A stretch of 64,000 bases of DNA from a bacterium (GTDB lineage Bacteria > Campylobacterota > Campylobacteria > Campylobacterales > Sulfurimonadaceae): positions 1-64,000 of the forward strand of contig JAHJEG010000033.1 in NCBI GenBank assembly GCA_018825665.1. The letters are read 5' to 3'. This document shows, piece after piece, positions 7,581-37,164 of this stretch. The notes beneath the pieces are model-generated. The model had not been told where the DNA came from. It made no database searches and saw nothing but the letters and a program-made list of their open reading frames with translations. The stretch's first letter is position 1; every line of letters begins with the position of its first letter. The position numbers and the translations under genes are program-made.

Positions 7581-10500
7581 TTAGACTAACTTTCTGTTTC
7601 TAAAAGCCAAGGCAATCACCAAAAATATTATCAGATATGTGACGGGCACAAAATCAGGGATTGGAACAGGGTCGCCTTTTGCATAGGAATGAAGACCTGC
7701 AAGGTAGTAGTTAACACCGAAATAGGTCATGATTACAGATGTAAATGCCAAAAGGGAGATAACACTGAAGTTAAAATCGCTGTATATAGATTTTATAAAT
7801 CTAAGGTGGATAACAATAGCGTACACAAGGATTGTCACAAGTGCCCAAGTCTCTTTTGGATCCCATCCCCAGTATCTTCCCCAGGATTCATTTGCCCAGA
7901 CTCCGCCCAAAAAGTTACCTATGGTCAAAAGCACAAGCCCCACCATCAAACTCATCTCATTAATCGAGTTCAACTCTTTTATAGAGAGGCTGATATGTTT
8001 TTCATTGTTTTTGGTTTTTAACACAAAAAGAATAATACTTATAAACCCGAGCAAGGCTCCCAATCCCAAGAAGCCGTAACTTGCGGTAATCATGGAAACA
8101 TGTATACTCAGCCAGTAAGAATTAAGAACGGGAACCAGGTTTGTAACCTGAGGATCCATCCAGTTCAGGTGTGCTACAAACAGGATAAGCCCCGCCAAAA
8201 TACCCGTCGACGCCATAGTCATACTTGAACGTTTTGAGAAGATAAAACCTGCCAAAACAGTAGCCCACGCGATATATATCATAGACTCATAGCCGTCAGA
8301 CCAGGGAGCGTGCCCCGAGATGTACCATCTGTTTATCAGACCGATGGTATGTGCCGTAAAAAACAAGATTAAAAGAGCCAGAGTCGATTTTGTAAAAAAT
8401 TCTATCTTAAAACTCGGTTTTAGAATTTTTACAAAACTCAAAATCAAAAGAAGAAAACCAACCAAAAGATAAAGAGGATAAATTCTTTCAAAAATATTTG
8501 CCTCATTATAGAATACTTCTGCGAGGATTCTGTTCTGGCTTGGATATACCTCTGCTCCGTAAAACTTCTGATACTCTGCGAGCTTTGATATCGCCGTGTC
8601 GGCCTCAGACCAGTTTGCGCTTGCCAAAGCTCTGTCTATAGATGTAAAATAATCCACCGCTATGGCTCTTAACTTCTCACCGTTTTGGGGCGTGAAACTC
8701 TGAAGTGCCTCTATGGTCGCAAACCATTTGTTGTTTACATCACCCGGTTTAGGCCAGATTTTTATCAGTGCTCCGGTATAGACCATATAAGCCACATTGA
8801 CGCGCTCGTCTACTTTTAATATCTCTTTGTCAAGCTTATCTCTGTATTTTGGTTCTTTTCTGATGGCTTCTTCAACTTTTTGGGAGAGCTTATATCCGCG
8901 CATATTTTCAGGATCCGTAAAAAACTGGGAAAAGGAGACATATTTGGCATCCTCTTTTGCATCGATGAGTTTATTTACTTCGCCATCTTTTGTTAAAATG
9001 ATTTTGATATCTCTGTAGATGTCAGGTCTGACCATCATCCCCAAGACAACCTGATTTGCACTTAGTTTGAACTCCCCTATATTTACGCTTGAACCTCTGT
9101 GTATCTTGGCAAGTATCTCTGTTGAGAGGGTATGCATGGGTTTCATTCTTCCGCCGCTGTCCTGGACTACAAGCTCTCCAAATTTCTTGGCATGTGCATT
9201 GTCAAATGAAAGAATCGTTTTTATAGCAGGGTTTAGCTCCTCTGCATAGGACGGGGATATACTAAAAAGAACTCCCAGACCGAGCAAGAACGACAATGCT
9301 TTTGATTCGCTGGCTTTTTTTGCTTTTTTAGCCAAAGACGCAAACCTGTGCTGTTTTGAGAATAATGACCAAAACATCCCAAGAGCCAAAAGAAAATATC
9401 CTATATACGAAGGAAGGGTTCCCGGGTCATTATTTACAGAAAGGATTGTCCCCATCTCATCCTGGTCGTACGATGCCTGAAAAAATCTGTATCCTCTGTG
9501 TTCGAGGATATTGTTCATAAAAATTCTATATGGCATCTCCACGCCCTCTTGTTTATCCACTAAGACAACCTCGCTCGCATAAGAAGCGGGGCTCATAGAA
9601 CCTGGATAACGGTCAAGCTGAAAATCAAGAAGCTTTATCTCAAAAGGCAGCTGCAGTTCTTTTGCCCCATACGAGAGATGTACATCCACACCGTTGATAT
9701 CGTTATGATACTCTTTTGCCATTTCCCCGCTTCTTCCAAAGATCAAGACCTCTTTTGAGACATCATCGACACGCACATTAAAACGAAGGGCATCATAGCC
9801 CGGCTGTCTCGCCGAAGCATTTGGATTTGAGACGATCTTAGTTGTGGAATGGGGTATAAACTCACGTAGGACGAAGTTGTTTTTTTCGGCTGTAAAAAGT
9901 GTTCTGCTTGTAAAGAGTTCTTTTTCATTCGCAATCAGCTCACCTTTTGAACCATCATCCATTTTCAGATAGCTTAGGGGCATACTGTGATTCATATATA
10001 AGATATCATCTTCGATAAACATAGAGATAACGGTTTTATCAAAGCTCTTATTGGAGCCAAAATCAAGAACAAAATCGCTGTCTTCATAGTATTCACCATG
10101 CTTAAGCGTAATCGGCTCACCTTGCCCGCCGCCAGTTACCATCATCTTGGCAACGGCCTGTCCGCCCTCTTTGAGCTCTACCGTCTCTTCTATCGCATCA
10201 TGTATATATTCTCTCAGCTCGACTTCAACATTTTTTCCCTCTATACTCAAAGAAGATGAAAGGCTGTTTGTACTTTTTTTAGACAGATATACAATCTCGC
10301 TTGTCGAGACTTTTTTACCGCCTGCAGAAGCATCAACCATGAAAAAAGTATCGCGGCTCAGCATCGTAGAACTGCTCTCACCTTCACGGATGTGCATAGA
10401 GCCTTCAAACCCTACAAAACGGGTAATCGCAGCACCCAGCAATATAACTAAAAAAGCAAAGTGGAAAATAAAGATAGGAGCCTTTTTTAAAGTGTACATT

Positions 10501-30086: not shown

Positions 30087-33000
30087 TTGAATCATTTTAT
30101 GAATATATCTGATATTATGTGTACAGATGTGGCATCCTTAGGGATAGACTCTTCGCTTCAAGAAGTTGTTCTTTTGATGCAAAGCAAAGAGATCAGCTCC
30201 GTTGTCGTCTGCAAAGACGATACTCCTGTCGGTATTATCACCGAACGGGATATCGCCAGAGCGGCTTTATCGCCTGAGGAAAGTCTCACAAAAGCTGCTT
30301 CTGAAGTGATGGCTGCACCCGTCTGCACCGTACAAAAAGATGCCGATTACAGAGATGCGTATATGACTATGGTGGAGCGCGGCATTCGTCATCTCGTTGT
30401 TGTAGATGAACAAAATACCCTGCTTGGCATCCTGGATGAAGGTGATTTTTTGCGCCATCTGAGCCCCGAACAGCTTCTAGCAATCAAAGAGATAGAAAAG
30501 GTGATGAGCAAGCTTGTCCTTACATGCTCTCCCGATGAGACAGTTGCTTATGCCCTAAAACTCATGAACAAAAAACGTGTCAGCACTCTGGTGATACAAA
30601 AAGAGGGGAAACCGGTCGGTATTCTCAGTGAACGGGACACGCTCAAACTGATTCAACTGCCAAACAGCGTATTACAAACAGCCGTAAAAGAGTTTATGTC
30701 CTCACCCGTTATAACTATTCATTATAAACAAACCGTTTTAAATGCACAGAGTGTCATGGCGGACAAGCGTGTGAGAAGACTCATAGTCGTTGACAGCGAA
30801 GGTAACACCAAAGGTATCATAACACGTCATGACCTTATCAAAAATCTACCCAATTACTATATCGAACTCTTGCGCGAAATGGTTGAAAATCAAAAACAGC
30901 TTGTCACAAAGACAAAAAAACAGCTTGATGAAAAACTTTTTTTTCAAAATGCTATGCAGGCACTCCCCCATTCACTTGTCTTTGCAGCGGACAAGGAAGG
31001 GTACGTACAGTTTGTCAATATAAAAAAGAATGAATCCTGCGAAATACCCGATGTAAAGATTGGTGATAATCTTTCTACCCTGAGCGATACTCTTTTTGAA
31101 CTCCTGCAAGATTCAAAATGGCAGGAAAAACTGGCTCTGAAATACACCCTGAATAAAATTATAGAGATAGAAAATACCGGCACACACCCTCTTTGTTATT
31201 TTCAAACAAGCATTTCAGAGATTTACAACAGCGAGAATACACTTGAAGGATACATATTTATCGCTAAAGATATCTCCACGAGCGAGCATCTTAAAAAAGA
31301 ACTTAGAAACACTTCTGAAAAACTGGAAAACGCGTATCATATAGCCAAAATAGGAAACTGGCAGCTTGATGCAAATACGATGGACGCGGTCTGGTCAGAT
31401 GAGATATGCGATATTCTGGGCATTCAAAGGGGAACGGTTGGCGGTCCGAAAATTTTAAGCCAATTCGTAAAAGATAAAGATTTTTCCAAAATAAGCAACT
31501 CCCTAGCTTCTGCAATAGAATACGCAACCGAGCATGAAGTGATTTATGAAATCACGCGTCCAAATGATAAACAGACACGATGGGTAGAGTGCCGTGCGAA
31601 AAGAGAGATTGACAAAGATGGAAACACCCAAGCTCTTTTGGGAACGCTTCAGGATATCACCCAACGCGTCAAGTCTGAAAAAAGTATTCAGCATCTCAAC
31701 AGTCTGCTCAAGTCTATTCGAACCATCAATCAGCTTATCATAAAAGAGCGAAGTCCTGAGAGACTTTTACAAAAAATATGTGATGAGATAACACATGTAC
31801 GTAATTTTTACGGTGCGTGGATTCTCCTGCATTCCAATCAAAAAAACGAGTTTTACAGTTCCGGTTTTAAAGAATCTGAAATATCCAAGATGAAACAAAA
31901 CCTAAACAGTCATATACTTCCGGAGTGTTGCAGTGATACCTCCTCCGGCGTAAAAATCTATGAAAATACAAAGATGCAATGCATAGAATGTCCCTTATCT
32001 ACGGCATCTAAAGAGCAAATAGCGATTACTGCACCCATTATCTTTAATGGAATCCACTTCGGACATCTTGGACTCTCTGTGCCGCTGGAATCTGTGCAAA
32101 ACAATGAAGAAAAGCAGCTTATCAAAGAGCTCTCCGATGATATTGCCTTTAGTCTCAATGCAATTGCGCAAAATGAGATCTATGAAAAGACCCAGCGCCG
32201 CTACCGCTCTTTGGTGGATAATTCACAAGACGGTATCTTTATTCATACTTTAGAGGGGGTACTTCTGGATGTAAACCCCGCCCTTGAACTGCTTCACGGC
32301 CGCCCAAAAGAAGAGATCATCGGTCACAATGTGATTGAATTTTACAAACCTGAAAATCTTCCTCTGGCGGCATTGCATTTTGAGGAGATTCAAAAAACCG
32401 GTCATATAATGCTCGATATGGAACTTTTGAAACTTGATGGAACCCCTTTTCATGCAGAACTGGTTGCATCTCTTGTTGAGATTGACGGTGAAAACGTAGT
32501 GCAGGGCTCGATTCGTGACGTCACCCAAAGATATGAAGCTGAAAAAAAAGCAAAGGAGAGTGAAGATACGATGATATTGGCACTTGAGAGTGCCGGACAC
32601 GGTGTTTGGGAGTACAATATCAAGACCAACGAGATACTTTTTTCCCATCATTACAAAAGTATGCTCGGATATACAGACGAGGAACTTGACAACTCTTTAG
32701 ACACTTTTTTGGAGCTTGTTCACCCTGATGATTTAAAATATACACAATTTTCTGTTGAGAGATTTATACAGCAGAACAAAAAAAGTCTGCGTCTCACCTT
32801 TAGGCTCAGATGCAAGGACGGTACATACAAATGGATCCTCTCTATTGCGACAAAGGTTATCTATGAAGGGGAAAGAGCCGTTAAAATAACAGGTACGAAT
32901 ACGGATATTTCCGAACAAAAAGAGGAAGAGGAAAAATTCAAACGTATCTTCAAGGACTCTCCTACAGGGATTATCTACTATACCTCTGAGGGTATTCTAC

Positions 33001-35328
33001 TCGACTGCAACGACAAATTTGCAAAACTTTTTCATACTGAACCCGAAAAACTCATCGGTATCAATATCTTTGACACAATAAAAAACGAAAATTTCATACA
33101 GGCCTTTCAATCTTCCATAGAAACAGGACATGGTGAATATGAAGGGTGGTATGAAGCTTCGACCACCACTGCAATCGGCTATGGACATGCCATATTTCAT
33201 GGAATAAAAGATGCCGATGGCAAAATACGCAACGGTATCGGTCTTGTTTCGGAATATACAAAACTCAAAGAAACCGAATCTTCCCTTCGTCTTTTCAAAC
33301 GCGGAGTAGAAGCATCCACAGAGGGTATAGTCATCACAAAAGCCGACGGAAATCAGGATGCCGTCTATGTAAACCCTGCATTTGAAAGATTAACCGGCTA
33401 CACTTCCCGGGAGATTCTTGGAAAAGAACTCTCATTTTTACAGGATACTACACAAAATGAAAATGAACTGCTCAGCTTGCATGATGCACTGGAAAAAGGG
33501 ATATCCAAAACCGTCTTTTTAAATAATCTAAAAAAAGACGGAACCAGGTTTATATCCCGACTCAGTATGGACCCCATATTTGACGAAAACAACAAGTTGA
33601 GCCATTTTGTCGGTTTTCAAAAAGACATCACAAAATTAAAAGAGGATGAAAAACGCCTGAGACAGTCTGCTGCCGTATTTGAAAATACTTCAGAAGGGGT
33701 AATGATTACTGATGCACAGGTTTATATCATAGATGTCAATGATGCCTTCACCTCGATAACAGGAAGAACAAAAGAAGAAGCAATCCATCAGAAACCTTCT
33801 ATCCTGAAATCAGGCAGACATGATAAGGCTTTTTATCAAGGCATGTGGAAAAGCATCACCGATACAGGGCAGTGGTGCGGCGAGATATGGAACAGACGTA
33901 AAAACGGCGAAATATATCCCCAATGGCTCAACATAAGCAGTGTAAAAAATTCTCTTGGGGAGATAGAGAACTATATCGCCGTCTTCTCCGACATCACGAC
34001 ACTCAAAGAGTCTGAAGAAAAACTCGACTATATGGCACACCATGATCATCTCACCGAATTGCCAAACAGAATTTTACTAAAAGCAAGACTGCAGCATACC
34101 CTCAGTATCAACAAACGTCAAAAACTACTGACGGCCGTAATGTTTATGGACCTGGATAACTTCAAAAATATTAACGACAGTTACGGTCATTCGGTGGGAG
34201 ATGAAGTCTTGGTGGCTGTTTCAAGCAGAATCTTGTCTACCTTAAGAGAAGATGACACACTCGCCCGCATAGGCGGAGACGAGTTTGTGATCGTCATGGA
34301 TAATTTTAAAACGACAGATGATATAAACAGAGTGGCCCAAAATATTATAGATACCTTTGAAAAGCCCTACTATATAGGAGAAAGAGAGTTTTGGATCACT
34401 TCAAGTATCGGAATCAGTATATCTCCCGAGGATGGGACATCTGCTGAAACACTTATCAAAAATGCAGATACCGCCATGTACGAAGCCAAAAGCGACGGAA
34501 AAAACATGTTCAAATACTATAATGACAATATGACTGCAAAATCATTTGAACGCATGCTTTTTGAAAATGCCCTAAAAACAGCCGTGATAAACAATGAGTT
34601 TGAGGTCTATTACCAGCCTCAGGAAAATATCCAGACAGACACGATTATAGGTTTTGAAGCCCTGCTGCGATGGAATCATCCAAGCCTTGGAATTGTCACC
34701 CCCCGATCGTTTCATACCCATTGCAGAAGAGACAAAGATGATTCTTTTTATTGGTGAGTTCGTACTCGAACAAGCATGCAGAGATATCTCAAAATGGAAA
34801 AAGAATGGAGTTTGCGACGGCAGGGTCGCCGTCAATGTCTCAGGGATTCAGATAGAACATTCAGATTTTGCAGGCACTCTGAAAAAATGCCTGCATAAAT
34901 ACAATGTTGAACCCTCTATGCTCGAAATTGAGGTGACGGAATCTACGGTTATGAAAAATCCCGAACAGTGGATAAGCATACTTGAAGAGATAAAGAGAAT
35001 CGGTGTAACTATAAGCGTTGATGATTTTGGCACCGGATATTCATCCCTGAGCTATTTACGACGCCTGCCTGTAGATACGCTCAAAATCGATATCAGTTTT
35101 GTGCAGGATCTGCCCTTTGAAAAAGATGCCTGTGCTATTGCAAATGCGATTATCAGCATGGCAAACAGTTTGGGACTGACGACTCTGGCTGAAGGTGTTG
35201 AGACACAAGAACAACGTGATTATCTAAAGAAAATAGGATGCATACAGACGCAGGGATTTTTACTTTCAAGACCAATGACATATTCTGCGACATGCGACTG
35301 GCTTACAAATATAAAAACTATAAGATAA
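30087..35328 (+). pseudogene. CBS-PAS-GGDEF-EAL signalling protein, interrupted by an apparent +1 frameshift in a C6 tract (34699-34704)
   Basis: ORF 30087..34757 ends EALLRWNHPSLGIVTP|RSFHTHC..stop; ORF 34654..35328 continues |DRFIPIAEETKMILFIGEFVLEQA...DDFGTGYSSLSYLRRLPVDTLKID. Removing one C restores a continuous EAL domain. Confidence 0.85.
33840..33849 (+). repeat. Dispersed motif GGCATGTGGA
   Basis: Exact 10-mer in the CBS-PAS-GGDEF-EAL gene (GMW register). Confidence 0.9.
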
Positions 35329-35333
35329 AAGTT

Positions 35334-35343
35334 TCCACATGCC
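35334..35343 (-). repeat. Dispersed motif GGCATGTGGA, left arm of hairpin
   Basis: Exact 10-mer, intergenic. Confidence 0.9.
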
Positions 35344-35355
35344 GGTACAACTTCC

Positions 35356-35365
35356 GGCATGTGGA
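35356..35365 (+). repeat. Dispersed motif GGCATGTGGA, right arm of hairpin (CTTCCGGCATGTGGAAAT)
   Basis: Exact 10-mer, intergenic. Confidence 0.9.
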
Positions 35366-35376
35366 AATAAAAAAGT

Positions 35377-37164
<1,788 letters not shown>

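Follow-up and report, generated by a model that had tools for sequence, protein, structure and literature searches.

The genes for an EAL-domain protein and for elongation factor P (efp) converge on a perfect hairpin in the window, the whole stretch of 64,000 nucleotides analysed here, which belongs to a 2.34-Mb MAG of Sulfurimonas, a sulfur-oxidising bacterium. The hairpin occupies positions 35332-35367 and reads exactly TTTCCACATGCCGG-TACAACTT-CCGGCATGTGGAAA, with perfect arms of 14 bp around an 8-nt loop. The left arm (35332-35345, minus strand) holds a minus-strand copy of the word GGCATGTGG at 35335-35343, the right arm (35354-35367, plus strand) holds a plus-strand copy at 35356-35364, and the loop (35346-35353, assigned to no strand) was delimited by sequence and RNA folding. 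An earlier note on this DNA had described a perfect inverted motif pair between convergent genes, and this description is exact.

The EAL frame (34738-35328, plus strand) encodes the EAL-domain 3' part of a CBS-PAS-GGDEF-EAL protein and ends with a TAA codon, whose last base is 35328. Three nucleotides separate this stop from the stem, and 9 nt separate the stem from the end of efp (35377-35943, minus strand, ending at 35377). The CBS-PAS-GGDEF-EAL gene is itself broken across two frames, the frame at 34738-35328 being shifted relative to that at 30099-34757. The break lies near a run of six C (window 34699-34704) and divides the EAL domain; it is either a true frameshift or an assembly error.

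The predicted RNA fold of the hairpin has an energy of -25 to -28 kcal/mol on either strand, with z-scores of -5 to -9 relative to shuffled sequences. An Rfam search of the hairpin region produced no match. The window contains 16 copies of GGCATGTGG, compared with 0.23 expected. The remaining 14 exact copies all lie within or overlap predicted genes, and thus the pair is, as had been claimed, the only fully intergenic one in the window.

An over-represented word

There are 758 copies of GGCATGTGG in the 2.34 Mb of the genome, almost evenly divided between the strands (358/400), and only 4 copies of the reversed word used as a control. The gene context was analysed in 554 kb of stretches around pairs, with genes predicted by our own simple caller; this sample contains 225 copies, 1.9 being expected. 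Single copies are scattered mainly through coding DNA: 129 of 145 (89%) are within coding regions, as exemplified by the plus-strand copy at 33840-33848, 13 are intergenic, and 3 lie on gene edges. The coding copies occur in both orientations relative to the gene (56 on the same strand, 73 on the opposite strand).

The extended consensus derived from 154 single copies is yyTGGCATGTGGAA. The flanks of these copies show no conservation beyond the 3-4 bases beside the core, and no AT-rich extension was detected in them one or two helical turns from GGCATGTGG. Remnants of small mobile repeats of the REP or MITE kind were rejected because the flanks are not conserved. The high copy number and the inverted arrangement would suit such repeats; however, the loops and orientations also differ from pair to pair, and we regard this explanation as extremely improbable.

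A variant word, GGCATGTGC, is 16-fold enriched in the sample and forms a few intergenic pairs too. In the window it occurs at positions 9189, 20563, 22611, 39993 and 47253. It is possibly a tolerated variant or an older dialect.

Inverted pairs at gene ends

The note had named the absence of other inverted pairs as an outcome that would speak against it. The opposite was observed: the genome contains 40 inverted pairs of GGCATGTGG at distances of at most 30 nt, with about 4 expected, compared with 8 direct pairs, for which 3.8 are expected. The orientation seen between the EAL gene and efp accounts for 25 pairs and the opposite one for 15 (about 1.9 expected each; Poisson P about 1e-19 and about 2e-9, respectively).

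The pairs are found just past genes. Thirty-seven of the 40 are intergenic, and in the 554-kb sample the copies in pairs are divided 74/6 between intergenic and coding DNA, versus 13/129 for single copies (Fisher test, 4e-38), so that only 6 of 80 paired copies in this genome are intragenic. Among the 36 pairs with both neighbours known, none is in a divergent region and 14 are in convergent regions, the background being 57 and 32, respectively, of 238 intergenic regions. The median distance from a pair to the nearest stop codon is 11 nt. The location downstream of stop codons with a preference for convergent genes, which the note had expected from Neisseria, is therefore seen here as well.

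Similar patterns were observed in two other genomes. In G057, 36 of 43 pairs are intergenic and 7 intragenic, 19 are convergent and 2 divergent, and the median distance to the stop is 12 nt. In G167, which has its own word GGCATGTGAA, 26 of 30 copies in inverted pairs are intergenic, and the intergenic pairs lie after stop codons. Pairs are present at about eight orthologous 3' ends both in the genome analysed here and in G057, at some of them with the orientation switched.

One explanation of this placement assigns no RNA role to the pairs: surplus tags would gather in 3' intergenic DNA, where constraint is absent, and uptake would favour pairs that are palindromic. The avoidance of promoter regions by pairs is also expected under unconstrained placement. 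However, the intergenic share of single copies is not raised (13/145, compared with 7% non-coding DNA), and direct pairs are rare, which indicates that it is the hairpin itself that goes with 3' ends. Moreover, transformation in Neisseria is reportedly not increased by pairing of uptake sequences (PMC2397512). We consider an origin of the pairs without an RNA role to be quite improbable.

Terminators or 3'-end hairpins

The note considered the pair to be an intrinsic terminator. A part of the expected structure is present, namely a stable GC-rich stem-loop just past the stop codon. In the direction of efp, the stem is followed by the U-rich tail CTTTTATCTT (35322-35331, minus strand), the sole canonical-looking terminator tail at the site, and this strand passes a terminator scan. 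The transcript of the EAL gene, however, enters UAAAAAAG past the stem and has no U-tail.

The same holds for the hairpins as a class. In the sample they rank first in strength among 3' hairpins (about -20 kcal/mol versus about -12 kcal/mol for others), but have on average 2.2 U in the 8 nt past the stem, compared with 2.8-2.9 for other hairpins of the same genome. No excess of T was found downstream of 37 co-directional pairs from two species (0.34, versus 0.37 upstream and 0.36 in random intergenic regions). Tails resembling canonical ones are no more frequent downstream of these pairs (7/37) than upstream (11/37), the background being 26%. Indeed, the extended motif places A or purines directly past the 3' arm in both orientations.

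A classical bidirectional terminator with U-tails, formed by a pair of uptake sequences exactly as in Neisseria, would account for the very stable GC-rich stems directly past stops, for their enrichment in convergent regions and for the tail on the efp strand. Given the composition downstream of the stems and the bare EAL strand, it is unlikely. The claim of an intrinsic terminator is thus not supported, whereas a 3'-end RNA hairpin, as predicted from folding and position, is well supported. As the class has no U-tail, its members are probably terminators that do without one, Rho-assisted ends or exonuclease barriers, and not classical intrinsic terminators. The element should rather be called a 3'-end hairpin, mostly without a U-tail.

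The 3' end of efp in other genomes

The proteins encoded by efp in the fetched loci are 83-97% identical. In two loci (L017 and L036) the 3' flank of efp contains a facing pair in the orientation opposite to that in the window, and in two others (L020 and L028) a facing pair in the same orientation with different loops or a variant arm. One arm of the facing pair is degenerate in L018 and L031. The pair in L034 is formed by the word GGCATGTGA, and that in L016 by TCTACATGTA...TACATGTAG, which belongs to the second type of dialect. No motif pair was found at the efp 3' flank in L019, from the G057 genome with its 911 copies. Since the hairpins use the local word of each genome in varied orientations, the efp hairpin has been remade several times.

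In a marine Sulfurimonas clade, the hairpin at the 3' end of efp, TGATACGAG..CTCGTATCA, is an ordinary one followed by a C/T-rich tail. The word TGATACGAG was considered as a dialect and rejected, as it is not over-represented.

Distribution and dialects

The word GGCATGTGG was counted in 150 relatives, comprising Sulfurimonas and other families, and is distributed patchily. Strong enrichment is seen in a handful of Sulfurimonas genomes (911, 893, 786, 560 and 411 copies), three of which, G057, G073 and G088, have 786-911 copies. About five further Sulfurimonas are moderately enriched (55-179 copies). The approximately 80 remaining Sulfurimonas and approximately 60 genomes from other families have the word at background level only. 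Named carriers are CG01_land_8_20_14_3_00_36_23 (933 copies), a lake Pavin MAG (1,433), AUK118 (648), CG2_30_36_10 (786) and SulCav_PC08_66_37_13 (893). Short tandem arrays of the motif with a period of 16-18 bases occur in motif-rich relatives (G077:C119:2739-2843, G088:C67:3913-3993, G057:C20:449079-449160, G057:C32:13358-13420).

Other Sulfurimonas have other words. The isolate DE12.003 (G167; L034, L259-L278) contains 1,095 copies of GGCATGTGAA, one base off GGCATGTGG, compared with 3 copies of the reversed control, and just 1 copy of GGCATGTGG in 186 kb. Across 95 close relatives, GGCATGTGAA is in slight excess only, with 34 copies at most. The palindrome TCTACATGTAGA has about 140-160 sites in each of G056, G032 and G006, and 0-1 in genomes rich in GGCATGTGG. 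In 420 kb of G056 no 12-base word ranks above it (28 copies versus 0.08 expected), and its 10-base core has 26 sites there, 22 of them in coding DNA. These properties suggest that TCTACATGTAGA is probably another dialect. The genomes rich in GGCATGTGG, GGCATGTGAA and TCTACATGTAGA form largely separate sets, and the three words have CATGT in common.

The palindrome is also over-represented in G048 and other Sulfurimonas lacking GGCATGTGG (L130, L133, L239-L258). The words TTACATGTAA and TTTCACGTGAAA seem over-represented in 20 kb of L141 (genome G011) and are possible additional dialects.

The distribution bears on the possibility that the word is an abundant chromosomal signal of another kind, for example for recombination (Chi-like), for segregation or nucleoid binding, or as the mark of a modification system. 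Such signals likewise are short, frequent and spread over coding DNA. However, Chi and segregation signals track conserved machinery, whereas GGCATGTGG is limited to some species of one genus and relatives carry different words. The balanced use of strands also argues against a signal of this kind, and genomes usually avoid restriction sites instead of accumulating them. All this makes another chromosomal signal rather improbable.

Competence genes

Genes for ComEC and pilin-like proteins were found in all 13 Sulfurimonas genomes tested. In most of them, whether rich or poor in the motif, pairs or triplets of pilin genes are situated about 8 kb from comEC. The genome considered here has pilins and a cluster of secretin, ATPase and platform protein genes of the type II secretion or type IV pilus type. 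The pilin-like genes near comEC may be regarded as candidates for uptake and recognition, and no more. As motif-poor Sulfurimonas have comEC and pilins just as well, no receptor correlating with the motif has emerged so far. The two or three small pilin-like genes, in most genomes those near comEC, occupy a conserved place beside flgBC/fliE-like genes (L181:1-1111, L183:2403-3479, L180:2526-4011) and are candidate receptors of the uptake sequence.

Discussion

The word has many properties of the uptake sequences of Neisseria and Pasteurellaceae: over-representation, balanced strands and scatter through coding DNA, clade-specific dialects, and machinery for competence or resembling type IV pili in its host. 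Its core differs from both GCCGTCTGAA (DUS) and AAGTGCGGT (USS). In its genomic signature, GGCATGTGG is of the uptake-sequence type, and it is from this signature that we infer a function in uptake. Most likely, a group of Sulfurimonas species uses it as their uptake sequence, and facing pairs past stop codons have been selected as 3'-end RNA elements; this is the reading we favour, with reasonable though not high confidence.

The closest parallel is the neisserial DUS (GCCGTCTGAA and its dialects), also a word of 9-12 bases present in hundreds to thousands of copies on balanced strands, forming inverted pairs after stop codons with enrichment between tail-to-tail genes, and having clade-specific dialects (PMC1852404, PMC3630211, PMC2397512). 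Unlike it, the Sulfurimonas word has an unrelated sequence and belongs to another phylum, and no ComP was identified. The pairs in Neisseria have asymmetric A/T tails and one dominant orientation, 226:5 in N. meningitidis Z2491 (PMC1852404), whereas both orientations are used in the genome analysed here (25 versus 15), with no asymmetry of A/T tails. Thus the comparison with Neisseria drawn in the note holds for the uptake-type signature and the convergent pairs after stops, and fails for the U-tailed terminator; nor is the motif a neisserial DUS by sequence or by lineage, the host being Sulfurimonas.

The USS of Pasteurellaceae (AAGTGCGGT) is likewise an abundant 9-mer, and its inverted pairs at distances of at most 10 nt in H. 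influenzae occur in both orientations (50 versus 25), some of them in terminators (PMC1852404). It differs from the Sulfurimonas word in sequence; moreover, the latter has no detected AT-rich extension, and its inverted pairs are almost all intergenic. Finally, hairpins without U-tails, such as non-canonical terminators and REP-like stabilisers of mRNA 3' ends, also have a strong stem past the stop. Unlike them, the arms of the Sulfurimonas hairpins are two copies of a genome-wide tag, and the hairpin of one gene was rebuilt from different dialects.

The following scenario would connect these observations. Firstly, GGCATGTGG, the core of yyTGGCATGTGGAA, would be a self-tag read during natural transformation in some Sulfurimonas species, and biased uptake with recombination would maintain hundreds of its copies. 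Secondly, with the word and its complement present in such numbers, facing pairs would arise easily. Finally, a pair landing just past a stop codon would form an RNA hairpin that may be selected, since it would end the transcript, protect it, or both. An RNA function of the hairpins is likewise what we infer. The EAL/efp element is apparently such a case, a real 3'-end hairpin made of two copies of a probable uptake sequence and kept by selection; it would serve both efp and the convergent EAL gene. Taken as a whole, an uptake-sequence system of independent origin in Sulfurimonas, having three or more dialects that share CATGT as their core, whose pairs have been co-opted as 3'-end hairpins without U-tails and rebuilt when the dialect changed, seems to us slightly favoured.

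No report of a DUS or USS in Sulfurimonas or other Campylobacterota was found in the literature searched by topic, most preprints and subscription journals being outside its reach. Searches with the letters of the motif yielded, among the matches listed, nothing but sequences without relation to it, most of them human genes and primers. To our knowledge, tags of self-DNA in transformation have been described in two families only, Neisseriaceae and Pasteurellaceae. If our interpretation is true, Sulfurimonas would be a third case, in another phylum, with dialects within one genus and the same exaptation at gene ends. It would show, independently of the other two cases, how tags of this kind originate, spread, change and are built into gene architecture. 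A comparison of orthologous 3' ends between dialects would make the order of events, with the tag first and the hairpin later, directly testable.
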